From contig CALLZM010000021.1 in the NCBI GenBank assembly GCA_937858705.1, positions 1-64,000 of the forward strand: a stretch of 64,000 nucleotides of DNA. The letters run 5' to 3'. The stretch comes from an uncultured Candidatus Saccharibacteria bacterium (lineage in GTDB: Bacteria > Patescibacteriota > Saccharimonadia > Saccharimonadales > Saccharimonadaceae). The notes under the pieces were generated by a model. That model saw only the letters and a list, made by a program, of their open reading frames with translations. It did no database searches and was not told the DNA's origin. This document shows, piece after piece, positions 1,557-56,774 of the stretch (its first letter is position 1; each line of letters opens with the position of its first letter). Made by a program: the position numbers and the translations under genes.

Positions 1557-3161
1557 ATGAGTAAAGTTGCAAAATATTTACAGGGCCACATTCTAGGAGA
1601 AATCACTACAAGGGAAGATGTTCGACAGAGCGCGTCATTTGATCATGGTGTGCTCACGAAAACACCAGAAATGGTAGCATATCCAAAAGCGACAGGTGAT
1701 ATCCGTAAAATTGCACGGTTTGCGTGGCAATTGGCAGAAAAAGGCCACACCCTACAAATTCACCCAGCTGGTACCGGTCTTTCAAGCACCGGTGCGTCAC
1801 TCGGTAAAGGCCTCAAGATTCTACTCTCCAAGCATATGAATAAGGTACTTGAATTCGATGCCAAACAAAAGCTTGTTCGCTTACAACCAGGTGCCTCTGT
1901 CGACTCTTTGCAGAGTGCACTTCGTCTTCATGGTCTGGCGCTTCCAACCTTATTGGGTCAAACTGGCACGATAGGCGGTGCGGTGGCAGATGATGTCGGT
2001 GGTATTTTTGCTGGTAAATATGGCACTGTGCGTCAATGGGTGGCGCAGCTCGAAGTGGTGCTCGATAATGGCGAAGTTATTCAAACTGAGCGAATTAGTA
2101 AATATGAGTTAAGTAAACGAAAAGGCATTCAAGGACGGATCGGGGATATTTATCGGGGTATCGATATTATCTTAGAAGAACATGCCGATTATATCCGTAA
2201 AATGCCGCCCGAGACGGTGCTCGACAGGAGCGGCTATCCTGGCATATTTGATGTAAAGCGAAAAGGTGGATCATTTGACCTCACGCCACTATTGGTGGGA
2301 AGTCAAGGAACGCTGGGCGTGGTGAGCGAAATGATATTAAAGACTGATTTTGTGCCCAAAGAATATACTATGGCTGCGCTGGCTTTTAGCAGCGAAGATG
2401 AAGCGCACGATGCTATCGATGTGTTGCGATCTACAAATCCAGGATTCTTGGAGTATTATGACGGATCGCTTTTCGCAAAAGCCCTGGAGCAAGGCAAGAC
2501 ATACGCTTGGCTGGGCGATAGTAAAAAAGTGGCAGCAGTGACGGTGATTGGATTTGATGATTTTAGTGAAAAGTCCAGAGAGCGAAAGCTTAAAAAAGTA
2601 CTAAAATCTCTCGAAAAAATGAAATGTGCATCTGTCACAAACCTAAAAAGTGAAGAAACACTACAACTACAGGCATTGCTTGATATTGTAAACTATACTG
2701 CGCTTCCAACTGATCAGGGAGATCTTTTCGGTAGCGAACTTATCAGTAATTTTTATATTCCACCAGTTAGTTTTAGTGAATTTACCAGAGAGCTTAAAGC
2801 ATTGAGTGAGTCCTTGCATACGGAACTACCGCTCTATGGTTCGCCTCTCTCTAATGTATACGCTATTCGCCCACAACTATCTATGAAAAAGGTAAGCGAC
2901 AAGCAGAAGATATTCAAAATTATCGACAGAGTCAATGCGCTTATCATGCAGCTGCGAGGAGAATTAGTGGCGGCTGGTGGCGAGGGCAGATTGTTGTCTC
3001 GATTCGCTCGCGCAAACTGGGATGATGAGTATACGCAAATCGTAGAAAAGATCAAAAATGTATTTGATCCGCACGGCATATTTAACCCCGAAGTGAAATC
3101 AACGGTCGAACTAAAAGAATTAGTCGCCGAACTTCGCAAAGACAATTCTATCGGCATGTGA
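1557..3161 (+). CDS. FAD-linked oxidase / GlcD-like dehydrogenase
   Basis: 534 aa. An N-terminal FAD-binding domain of the VAO/PCMH type (about residues 45-235) is shown by HPAGTGLSSTGASLG and GQTGTIGGAVADDVGG. A C-terminal FAD-oxidase domain ends in the typical FDPHGIFNPEVK. Relatives oxidise 2-hydroxy acids such as lactate or glycolate and pass electrons to a membrane acceptor. The substrate cannot be read from the sequence, and no Fe-S partner subunit lies alongside. An upstream TTG at 1518 also opens the frame, but the ATG at 1557 is preceded by GAGGGA at a suitable distance. It is a single-gene unit ending just before the tRNA-Leu region. Confidence 0.85.
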   Translation: MSKVAKYLQGHILGEITTREDVRQSASFDHGVLTKTPEMVAYPKATGDIRKIARFAWQLAEKGHTLQIHPAGTGLSSTGASLGKGLKILLSKHMNKVLEFDAKQKLVRLQPGASVDSLQSALRLHGLALPTLLGQTGTIGGAVADDVGGIFAGKYGTVRQWVAQLEVVLDNGEVIQTERISKYELSKRKGIQGRIGDIYRGIDIILEEHADYIRKMPPETVLDRSGYPGIFDVKRKGGSFDLTPLLVGSQGTLGVVSEMILKTDFVPKEYTMAALAFSSEDEAHDAIDVLRSTNPGFLEYYDGSLFAKALEQGKTYAWLGDSKKVAAVTVIGFDDFSEKSRERKLKKVLKSLEKMKCASVTNLKSEETLQLQALLDIVNYTALPTDQGDLFGSELISNFYIPPVSFSEFTRELKALSESLHTELPLYGSPLSNVYAIRPQLSMKKVSDKQKIFKIIDRVNALIMQLRGELVAAGGEGRLLSRFARANWDDEYTQIVEKIKNVFDPHGIFNPEVKSTVELKELVAELRKDNSIGM

Positions 3162-32974: not shown

Positions 32975-34327
32975 ATGGAAAGAACTGGCGGCTCCGAAGG
33001 TCCTCAAATAGATTTACTTTCACGGCTTGAAGATGATGCGTATGAGGAAGGATGGCTGCAACTTGCCGCCTTACAACAAGTACTCAATGGCGAGCGCGCA
33101 CAGGAAAATATCCCTGAAATTATCGAAGCAGCATATAGACTATTCGGCACAAAAGAATATATCGGAGAAAAAATAGACATCAACGCTTGGTCGTTAGGTC
33201 CGAATGGAAGAGTTGGATACGGTCTTTATAAGGGCCAGTATGAAGGTATAGTAGCCATTCCACTCAACGGGTCAGAAGTGCTAGGATTTATCGACGATAT
33301 TCCTTTTGATGCTAAAACTATGAAAACTATTCTCGCAATTCATCTTATCCAACGGGGCACCACACAAAATAAAGAGACCTTTATACCCCTTGTCCGTGAA
33401 GCTATCCATAGCTTTTCTGTGCATGAAGAGAAAGAACCAGGCCGGGCGCTTTTAATTGTACTACGCCGTATGGCCCAGTCTATTCAGTCCGGACATTCAA
33501 GCACACTGGGAGTTTCGGTAGAGGATGAGCGAGAAATGTGCGAAACTCAGATGAATGTTTTGCTGAACAATTTTATTTCCAGTTACGCTGAGGGGGGGGG
33601 ATTCTTTGTTGTTACCAATGAGTCTTCGCTTCTTTCGTCCAATCATGATATACCAGTGACTGAGCAATCGCGCAATATCATATTGTATGGTGAATCAGGG
33701 AAGATTGTCATCGATGACGACAATGAGAGCAGTCTCATTGTGCGTGCAAGCGATGCACTTCCTCGGAGGGTGCCGATCATTGCCATTAGTGATATATACC
33801 CTGTAGCTGATGAAGTCATCGAGACGACAGATCTTCTTGATACCGTGTTTAATGAGGAATTTTGGACAACCGCTGATTCACTCTCTGAAAAGTTGCTCAC
33901 TCTCCAGCGACAGGGCATCGGCGAGCAACAGATGATCGATGCTTGCGTAAAGGCTGGCGGTATGCTTGAAAAACAAGTACCACTATCCGTTAGAAATACT
34001 TCAGCATATCTCAAGATGAGCGGTGTAGCGTACGAGTACGATCAGCGCGGTAATTTGCAGCAGACGCTCCTCTCAATCGACAGCATCGACGATAGGGGCG
34101 ATATTGTAACTGAATGCCGAGGGTTTGATTTTTACTTCGTAGGAGACAGGTTTATTCCATTGCTTGAGATCCATATCTACACTATCAATCAAGGTGATTT
34201 AGTAGTAGATGAGGGTCTAAAACAAGGGTGGCAAAAATGGCATCCATCGAAAGAATATGGCAATCAAAGAACTGTCTACGCCATGCCGCACAAGAATGAA
34301 CTCGTCGAATTTGAAGCTGCTATCTAA
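32975..34327 (+). CDS. Hypothetical protein (450 aa) with a G9 tract
   Basis: I do not recognise the family. The protein is soluble, acidic and without membrane segments or cysteine clusters. A run of nine G at 33592-33600 encodes the Gly run in EGGGFFVV near residue 207; gain or loss of one G would end the protein early. The C-terminal half alternates strands and helices. A CACAAT -10 lies 9 nt before the ATG. It stands between tgt and tuf on the same strand but with its own promoter. Confidence 0.7.
   Translation: MERTGGSEGPQIDLLSRLEDDAYEEGWLQLAALQQVLNGERAQENIPEIIEAAYRLFGTKEYIGEKIDINAWSLGPNGRVGYGLYKGQYEGIVAIPLNGSEVLGFIDDIPFDAKTMKTILAIHLIQRGTTQNKETFIPLVREAIHSFSVHEEKEPGRALLIVLRRMAQSIQSGHSSTLGVSVEDEREMCETQMNVLLNNFISSYAEGGGFFVVTNESSLLSSNHDIPVTEQSRNIILYGESGKIVIDDDNESSLIVRASDALPRRVPIIAISDIYPVADEVIETTDLLDTVFNEEFWTTADSLSEKLLTLQRQGIGEQQMIDACVKAGGMLEKQVPLSVRNTSAYLKMSGVAYEYDQRGNLQQTLLSIDSIDDRGDIVTECRGFDFYFVGDRFIPLLEIHIYTINQGDLVVDEGLKQGWQKWHPSKEYGNQRTVYAMPHKNELVEFEAAI
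33592..33600 (+). repeat. Homopolymer of nine G inside a coding region
   Basis: Nine consecutive G, preceded by GA and followed by ATT. Tracts of this length are prone to slippage in replication and sequencing. Confidence 0.95.
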
Positions 34328-55745: not shown

Positions 55746-56027
55746 CTACTTCTTCTTTGTAGTAGCTTTTGGCTTGGTATTATTGCCGAGGCGTATCAAG
55801 ACAAGACCGTTCAGAAGAGCCCATGCGATAGCATTGAAGACAAATACACCAAGACATACAAACGATATCGTTACCAGTGTTTGGCCCACTTCGTATCGAA
55901 CGAGTCCGACCAATCCAGCGACAATAATACCAACGATAGCCAGCGCCATATACGCATGCTGTAATTTTATACGAGTATCTGTTTCCTGGTACCATTTGTT
56001 GAGTGAAGACACTATAAACTTGTTCAT
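55746..56027 (-). CDS. Small membrane protein (93 aa)
   Basis: Two hydrophobic segments (about 27-44 and 50-78) and a Lys-rich tail. The family is unknown to me. It is convergent with the TPR gene with no space between. A consensus promoter gives a leaderless mRNA (TATAAT, 6 nt, ATG). Confidence 0.7.
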   Translation of the reverse strand: MNKFIVSSLNKWYQETDTRIKLQHAYMALAIVGIIVAGLVGLVRYEVGQTLVTISFVCLGVFVFNAIAWALLNGLVLIRLGNNTKPKATTKKK

Positions 56028-56033
56028 AATTTC

Positions 56034-56063
56034 ATTATATCACACTATATGCGCTTTTGTCAA
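56034..56063 (-). promoter_or_regulatory. Consensus promoter of the 55746 gene
   Basis: On the minus strand TTGACA (56058-56063), 18 nt, TATAAT (56034-56039), with GTGTGA before the -10 as in the hisS-antisense copy. It is divergent from the pilin-like gene's promoter. Confidence 0.75.
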
Positions 56064-56100: not shown

Positions 56101-56132
56101 TTGACTCAGTATAGGGGGGGGGGTGCTATAAT
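56101..56132 (+). promoter_or_regulatory. Promoter with a G10 tract in its spacer
   Basis: TTGACT (56101-56106), a 20-nt spacer containing ten G (56114-56123), and TATAAT (56127-56132). Both boxes are near consensus, but the spacing is 2-3 nt too long. Loss of two or three G would bring it to the 17-18 nt optimum. This is the layout of slippage-controlled promoters. Confidence 0.75.
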
Positions 56133-56162
56133 ACAAGGCATAACTAATATGAAAGGAAGTGC

Positions 56163-56774
56163 ATGAAAAAACGGTCAGAACGAGGTTTTGGGGTAGTCGA
56201 GGTTATCCTCGTCATTATCATAGTCGCCCTCATTGGCGCACTGGGCTGGCTTTTTTGGGGGCGATCGAATAGCGCATCGACCGAAACAAGTGATACGAGC
56301 AAAACAGAAGAACAAAAACCTTCAAAAAATGACACCAAAGAAGAGGTTAAGACGACAACTGTTTCAAACCAGTATTTCTCTGTTGTGCTACCAGAAGACT
56401 GGAAAGAAGTCGAATGGAAATCGGAAGTAGGCGCACCCAAAGCCTCATACCAGTACGCAAATGAGACTGGAACAGAAATAAGCATATTGGTAGGCTATGG
56501 CGGTTTTGGCAGCGGCGGAGCAGACGGCTCGGCTTCATTTACTATCGCTGGCAACAAGTTTGTCCTCGATAAGACCTACAAACCGTGCGCCACTGTAGAA
56601 GGGCAAAATAACGGCTGTACGCAAGGTGACGGCAAACTCACTCTTGATGCAATAAATTACGATGCAACCTATAACGGCAATAACTACCTCTTCAGATTCG
56701 CAGACACCAAATCTGAGAGCCAAGAAGCCTACAAAGCAATGGCTGCCATAGTTGAAAGCATTGAGCTAAAATAA
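56163..56774 (+). CDS. Type IV pilin-like surface protein
   Basis: 203 aa. The N-terminus KKRSERG/FGVVEVILVIIIVALI has a prepilin-peptidase site: basic leader, Gly, then Phe, and Glu at mature position 5, followed by a hydrophobic helix. After a Ser/Thr/Lys-rich linker (about 38-65) a globular domain of about 135 residues follows, with a Cys pair (KPCATVEGQNNGC) likely forming a disulfide. It may be a minor pilin or a surface protein assembled by pilus machinery, none of which lies in the window. AAGGAAG precedes the ATG. A G10 tract in the promoter suggests on/off expression. Confidence 0.75.
   Translation: MKKRSERGFGVVEVILVIIIVALIGALGWLFWGRSNSASTETSDTSKTEEQKPSKNDTKEEVKTTTVSNQYFSVVLPEDWKEVEWKSEVGAPKASYQYANETGTEISILVGYGGFGSGGADGSASFTIAGNKFVLDKTYKPCATVEGQNNGCTQGDGKLTLDAINYDATYNGNNYLFRFADTKSESQEAYKAMAAIVESIELK

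Follow-up and report, generated by a model that had tools for sequence, protein, structure and literature searches.

Candidate phase-variable promoters with G tracts upstream of predicted surface protein genes in a Saccharibacteria genome

Promoter and gene at positions 56101 to 56774

The window, i.e., the whole stretch of 64 kb analysed here, belongs to a 66.6-kb contig of a draft assembly (G000) comprising 910 kb in 31 contigs. Positions 56101-56132 on the plus strand read TTGACT CAGTATA GGGGGGGGGG TGC TATAAT. The -35 element TTGACT (56101..56106) and the -10 hexamer TATAAT (56127-56132) enclose a spacer of 20 nt, in which a G10 homopolymer tract occupies positions 56114..56123. The arrangement of TTGACT and TATAAT around ten G in a 20-nt spacer, as given in a preliminary description, was confirmed, but the TGC preceding the hexamer had been overlooked there; it creates an extended -10 element, TGC-TATAAT (TGCTATAAT, 56124..56132), which could lessen the importance of spacing at this promoter. 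The exact -35/tract/-10 pattern occurs a single time in the genome, and the looser architecture about 14 times. The leader of the downstream gene is predicted to be about 24 nt long and carries the Shine-Dalgarno-like ribosome site AAAGGAAG (56152..56159, plus strand). On the minus strand, a divergent gene for a 93-aa membrane protein (55746..56027) has a tract-free promoter, TTGACA-N18-TATAAT (56034..56063), which offers a natural fixed-spacer comparison.

The gene at 56163..56774 (plus strand) encodes a prepilin-type-anchored protein of 203 aa, with a hydrophobic helix, a Ser/Thr-rich linker and a beta-rich C-terminal domain behind its N-terminus. The N-terminus contains the prepilin-type motif RGFGVVEVILVIII; in RGFGVVEVILVIIIVALIGAL the G|F....E5 motif of a class III signal is visible by eye, and Pfam N_methyl scores 16.6-19.6 bits, below the curated cut-off of 21.2. 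A prepilin peptidase (Peptidase_A24, above cut-off) is encoded at C6:33473-33802. Most family homologues of the protein retain GF..VE, their helix ends in a GW/GY aromatic, and behind it come a linker rich in Ser/Thr and C-terminal domains that vary. The AF2 model consists of a lone helix (residues 9-36), a linker and a separate beta-rich domain. Among solved structures in the PDB, the model most resembles PsbP proteins at low significance (all E-values ≥5e-3), and a weak hit of the sequence to Pfam PsbP_2 points the same way. The model does not show the pilin arrangement of a long N-terminal alpha helix lying against a globular head, and pilins are absent from its top 50 PDB matches; because the mean pLDDT is 67.7, this fold comparison is not a strong test of a pilin head. 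Of the "pilin-like gene" named in the preliminary description, the prepilin-type N-terminus stands, just under the Pfam cut-off, and the C-terminal domain looks PsbP-like instead of pilin-like. We describe the product as a surface protein with a prepilin-type anchor and a probable PsbP-like domain rather than as a proven pilin; it is predicted to be extracellular and surface exposed through a prepilin-type or membrane anchor.

Long G and C runs across the genome

The window contains 54 runs of G4, 5 of G5, 1 of G6, none of G7 or G8, and 1 each of G9 and G10; the two long runs lie outside the tail of the run-length distribution. In the assembly, 42 G/C runs of ≥8 nt were counted, whereas base composition with independent positions predicts 11.7 and the run-length decay of the window about 0.3; for runs of ≥10 nt, the expectation is 0.63 at most. 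The majority of these 42 lie within or antisense to open reading frames. On the G strand, TTGAC lies 3-12 nt upstream of 9 of the genome's 38 tracts considered, compared with 0.46 expected (p = 6e-10; background, 1.2% of random positions). About 14 tracts are placed between a -35 and a -10 element, at least nine of these at prepilin-type genes and the others at genes for collagen-like and membrane-anchored proteins. Of the 30 loci recognised as prepilin-like by Pfam N_methyl, 10 carry a tract ≤60 bp upstream (p about 1e-14; expectation, 0.22 within 150 bp upstream). No tract occurs in the cluster of prepilin genes that surrounds the prepilin peptidase (C6:31933-34602); the tracts are mostly found at orphan, accessory prepilins. 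The sequence around the tracts hence corrects the earlier picture of a single phase-variable promoter, since the locus in the window is one of about 14, and true pilin genes at other loci bear clearer tract promoters than the window gene.

Pilin genes are preceded by TTGACA-N9-G9-TATACT at C2:40398 and on C30 (spacer of 18 nt each), TTGACG-N8-G10-A-TACACT at C6:114643, TTGATT-N8-G11-TATACT at C18:754 and TTGACA-N9-G10-TATACT at the C26/C28 contig junction (19 nt each), and TTGACA-N8-G12-TATACT on C31 (20 nt). The promoters of two collagen-like genes read TTGACA-N9-G10-TACCAT (C6:51450) and TTGACA-N9-G10-TATACT (C16, a possibly mis-binned contig), both with 19 nt, and those of a membrane protein at C6:251131 and of a membrane-anchored paralogue of the window protein at C20:15021 read TTGACG-N7-G10-TGC-TATACT (20 nt) and TTGACA-N9-G11-TGC-TATTAT (23 nt), respectively. 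Poly-C takes the place of poly-G at prepilin genes on C23 (TTGACA-C10-TGGAAG-TAAAAT, 16 nt) and C14 (TTGCAC-C8-ATTCAGTGC-TATCAT, 17 nt); with these two pilin promoters, a strict rule of G on the sense strand (9 versus 0) was dropped. A G10 tract with a weaker -35 element at C25:21727 precedes a gene whose 472-aa product weakly matches Fib_succ_major. At C9:12900, TTGACG-N8-G14 without a -10 element beside the tract runs into probable collagen-family coding sequence, which is similar (KLDGTLKDNSV) to internal parts of the collagen-like genes; this may stem from a mis-assembly or from G tracts having rearranged with each other.

In several prepilin genes behind a tract, the ATG follows 6-7 nt after the -10 element, and their transcripts should therefore be leaderless or nearly so. 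The tract at C23:11159 separates two divergent prepilin genes. In a row of prepilin genes at C14:13000-20200, two tandem genes (starts 16154 and 15531) are near-duplicates and have promoter and leader in common. At equal spacing, C9 in one of them corresponds to the interrupted CCTCCTCCC in the other, so that a pure tract can naturally be compared with an interrupted one.

Some of the remaining tracts are intragenic. In the window, G9 at 33592-33600 lies, currently in frame, inside the open reading frame 32975-34324 (plus strand; 450 aa, no Pfam match), a candidate for translational phase variation by frameshifting. In the C6:112416 region (L099), G9 marks the junction of a 200-aa (2514-3113) and a 280-aa (1688-2527) frame, both on the minus strand, the latter with a kinase-like GVVHGDFKLKNIG motif; together they look like one gene in a frameshifted state. 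At C6:72912 (L097), G13 stands where a reverse-transcriptase fragment begins (2074-2499, minus strand; RVT_1 just below cut-off), as if G13 had frameshifted a reverse transcriptase gene. Tracts at L096, L100, L101, L102, L103 and L094 lie inside glycosyltransferase family 2 genes and genes for a GDSL lipase, an M23 peptidase, a GFO/IDH/MocA oxidoreductase and an autoinducer-synthase-like protein. The intragenic tracts are thus candidates for a second, translational set of phase-variable genes.

That the tracts are sequencing or assembly artefacts, e.g., poly-G calls of two-colour chemistry, is conceivable for a draft genome of 31 contigs in which two tracts sit at the overlapping ends of C26 and C28. 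Moreover, the 2,681 bp at C16:1731-4411, including the collagen-like gene and its G10 promoter, are 100% identical to contig C14 of a genome from a different genus (G164). The C16 promoter is therefore no independent replicate, and its identity may reflect mis-binning or a very recent transfer. However, the tract in the window lies deep inside its contig with ordinary sequence on either side, tract placement is non-random relative to promoters, and the same architecture is present in independently assembled, named genomes, all of which makes an artefact extremely unlikely.

Spacer length and tract variation

The tract-free TTGAC...TATAHT pairs of the genome peak at spacers of 17 nt (6 of 19) and 18 nt (5 of 19), compared with 0.4-0.6 expected per length, and the spacer of the divergent neighbour promoter at 56063-56034 (18 nt) falls within this peak. 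The 20-nt spacer in the window is therefore 2-3 nt off the optimum, as the preliminary description had assumed, and predicts a weak state. The spacers of the genome's own tract promoters are 16, 17, 18 (two), 19 (five), 20 (three) and 23 nt, which resembles a mixture of strong and weak states. When related genomes are included, the spacers range from 12 to 25 nt with 30 of 42 at 15-19 nt, a spread as expected for freely changing tracts. The lengths of these tracts are concentrated at 9-10 nt and are not compensated by the remainder of the spacer (rho = +0.34); selection on total spacing is therefore not visible.

Spacing would matter less if the tract only modestly tuned basal output while the extended -10 TGCTATAAT carried the promoter, with no real OFF state. 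TGC-TATAAT in the window and TGC-TATACT at C6:251131 favour such tuning, and Helicobacter pylori sabA provides a precedent for a promoter-proximal tract (PMC4081817), whereas TATACT directly abuts the tract, without a TG extended motif, in most pilin tract promoters. We regard this tuning as a tentative option for the repertoire; the promoter in the window itself may perhaps be a rheostat instead of an on/off switch owing to its extended -10 element. A rheostat is a mode of slippage and not its opposite.

MutS_V was absent from all 61 genomes of the order that were searched (our genome and 60 relatives), with 11 of 14 control genomes positive. One related genome (G517) has the promoter TTGACAYGCGCATGA[Gn]TATACT with n = 8, 9 and 10 between nearly constant flanks, and another (G304) has promoter copies with n = 16 and 17 and otherwise closely matching flanks. 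Such near-identical copies in relatives, which differ by 1-2 G, can be read as direct evidence of tract length change. They speak against a structural or protein-binding promoter element of constant length that does not switch. The recurrence of the architecture and the concentration of tract lengths at 9-10 nt would suit an element of this kind, but besides the variation among G8/G9/G10 and G16/G17 copies, two pilin genes have poly-C in place of poly-G and one tandem duplicate has CCTCCTCCC instead of C9, so the tract need be neither pure nor made of a particular base; a fixed element is very unlikely.

Relatives, known systems and proposed surface variation

In the family, TTGAC-N5-14-G8+ was found in 84 of 394 genomes and 22 of 61 genera, compared with 10 genomes for a reversed-pattern control. 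The presence of tracts is patchy within the genus (42 in our genome, 0 and 2 in the congeners G001 and G002). A G tract followed by TGCTATAAT is also present in G008, G030 and G036. The signal weakens at the level of the phylum, where 32 of 380 genomes, own family included, match, versus 13 with the reversed control, although G446, G517, G571 and G617 carry several tract promoters each. The architecture recurs in related genomes, but conservation of the particular switch at the window gene was not seen: 34 of 35 homologous open reading frames inspected lack the tract, the exception being the paralogue on C20 of the same genome. No homologue of the window gene was detectable in the two congeners, and no relative was found among viral contigs searched for a second allele of the species.

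The genes downstream of tract promoters in relatives, judged by N-terminal sequence and not by family search, mostly encode predicted secreted or signal-peptide proteins, repeat surface proteins, pilins and collagen-like proteins. This distribution bears on the explanation that G runs simply grow where they are tolerated in a lineage without mismatch repair, e.g., in promoter spacers because their sequence is unconstrained, and that their lengths vary without any selected function. The absence of MutS across the order and the many tracts within or antisense to open reading frames are in line with such a neutral expansion. However, most relatives also lack MutS and yet have 0-3 tracts, the tracts of our genome occur at spacers and prepilin genes far beyond chance, and the downstream genes in relatives are mainly those of secreted or surface proteins. 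Neutral expansion is hence rather unlikely.

A wider scan for TTGAC-N8-14-G8-TATAMT, with one genome per species, returned many Clostridia and Bacilli among the matches listed, as well as Streptobacillus, Streptococcus, Helicobacter and also Saccharibacteria; the architecture is therefore not peculiar to this phylum. In these genomes of gut Firmicutes, Streptobacillus, Streptococcus and Helicobacter, the DNA architecture is the same and several cases precede predicted secreted or outer-membrane proteins, but the phyla are others and the genes unrelated. In Streptobacillus notomytis (LJRV01000165.1, positions 3086 and 4296), the neighbouring promoters TTGACAAAATAATGA-G10-TATAAT and TTGACAAAATATC-G11-TATAAT precede related small predicted secreted or outer-membrane proteins. 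No description of the TTGAC-N-G8+-TATAMT promoters of these other-phylum genomes was encountered in the papers found.

Phase-variable promoters with poly-C or poly-G between -35 and -10 have been reported for fetA, opc and porA of Neisseria (PMC5320596; van der Ende 1995, as cited therein; Sarkari 1994, as cited in PMC4081817). The promoter in the window has a homopolymer between sigma-70-type -35 and -10 elements and shares with them the G/C tract in the core-promoter spacer of a predicted surface protein gene. Unlike in Neisseria, a different phylum, about 14 such promoters are present in a 0.9-Mb genome, compared with three cases of transcriptional phase variation listed for the gonococcus. 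The tract often abuts the -10 element here, the targets are mostly prepilin genes, several ATGs follow the -10 by 6-7 nt in a leaderless-like fashion, and switching is proposed from sequence. In Haemophilus influenzae, a variable combined promoter lies between the divergent fimbrial genes of hif (van Ham 1993, as cited in PMC11868660). This is comparable to the tract between the two divergent prepilin genes at C23:11159, and fimbria-type surface genes are concerned in both cases. The hif region has a dinucleotide repeat and encodes chaperone-usher fimbriae, in contrast to the mononucleotide G/C tracts and type IV-type prepilins described here. In H. pylori, another small genome with few regulators, a promoter-linked T-tract tunes the adhesin SabA as a rheostat (PMC4081817); that tract adjoins the -35 element on its upstream side, whereas those of our genome lie within the spacer.

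Type IV pili have been shown to drive the binding of cultivated Saccharibacteria to their hosts (PMC12206443). No description of phase variation or homopolymers in Saccharibacteria, Patescibacteria or CPR was found in the open-licence full-text literature, consistent with the preliminary statement that no phase-variable pilin-like promoter is known from Saccharibacteria-like organisms; the nearest published case is a hypervariable repeat gene of a Gracilibacterium, in which the repeat is coding and not part of a promoter (PMC6851277). The mechanism is of a known kind, and its use in Saccharibacteria appears unreported.

Taken together, we consider it probable that the genome harbours a repertoire of slipped-strand phase-variable core promoters like those of Neisseria porA, opc and fetA. 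The G10 tract would act as a hypermutable spacer of a sigma-70-type core promoter, in which slipped-strand mispairing during replication adds or removes Gs that stay uncorrected because the lineage lacks MutS. Each gain or loss would shift the distance and the helical phasing between -35 and -10, so that G10 (20 nt) may give a weak promoter borne mainly by the extended -10, and G7-G8 (17-18 nt) a strong one. The same device would operate in front of about 14 genes, chiefly those for orphan prepilins, collagen-like and membrane-anchored proteins, and a clonal population would therefore be a mosaic of surface compositions, with a possible benefit in host-cell contact or in the evasion of phage or host. 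Switching in the organism, its rate, its effect on transcription and its benefit are inferred. The initial proposal of a phase-variable promoter is partly supported: promoter anatomy, the enrichment of tracts at spacers and prepilin genes, the spacer optimum of the genome, the lack of detectable MutS and the copies of one promoter with unequal tracts in a relative speak for it in kind, but it is better put for the genome than for a lone locus. The farther-reaching view that independent tract promoters in a MutS-less cell amount to combinatorial surface switching, each cell having its own pilin and adhesin set and the population being pre-adapted to hosts and phages, has about an even chance of being correct.

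Probably, slippage at these tracts lets the cell raise and lower the output of its surface proteins in the manner of Neisseria. If the combinatorial view holds, no phase-variation repertoire would have been reported from Patescibacteria before; a repertoire of phase-variable pilin and adhesin promoters would be a concrete, testable source of cell-to-cell surface diversity in very small genomes. The consensus sequence of a draft genome would then capture one state per switch, which is relevant for annotation, and clonal cultures would have to be read as mosaics. Such a repertoire would bear on how Saccharibacteria vary their host range and host attachment.
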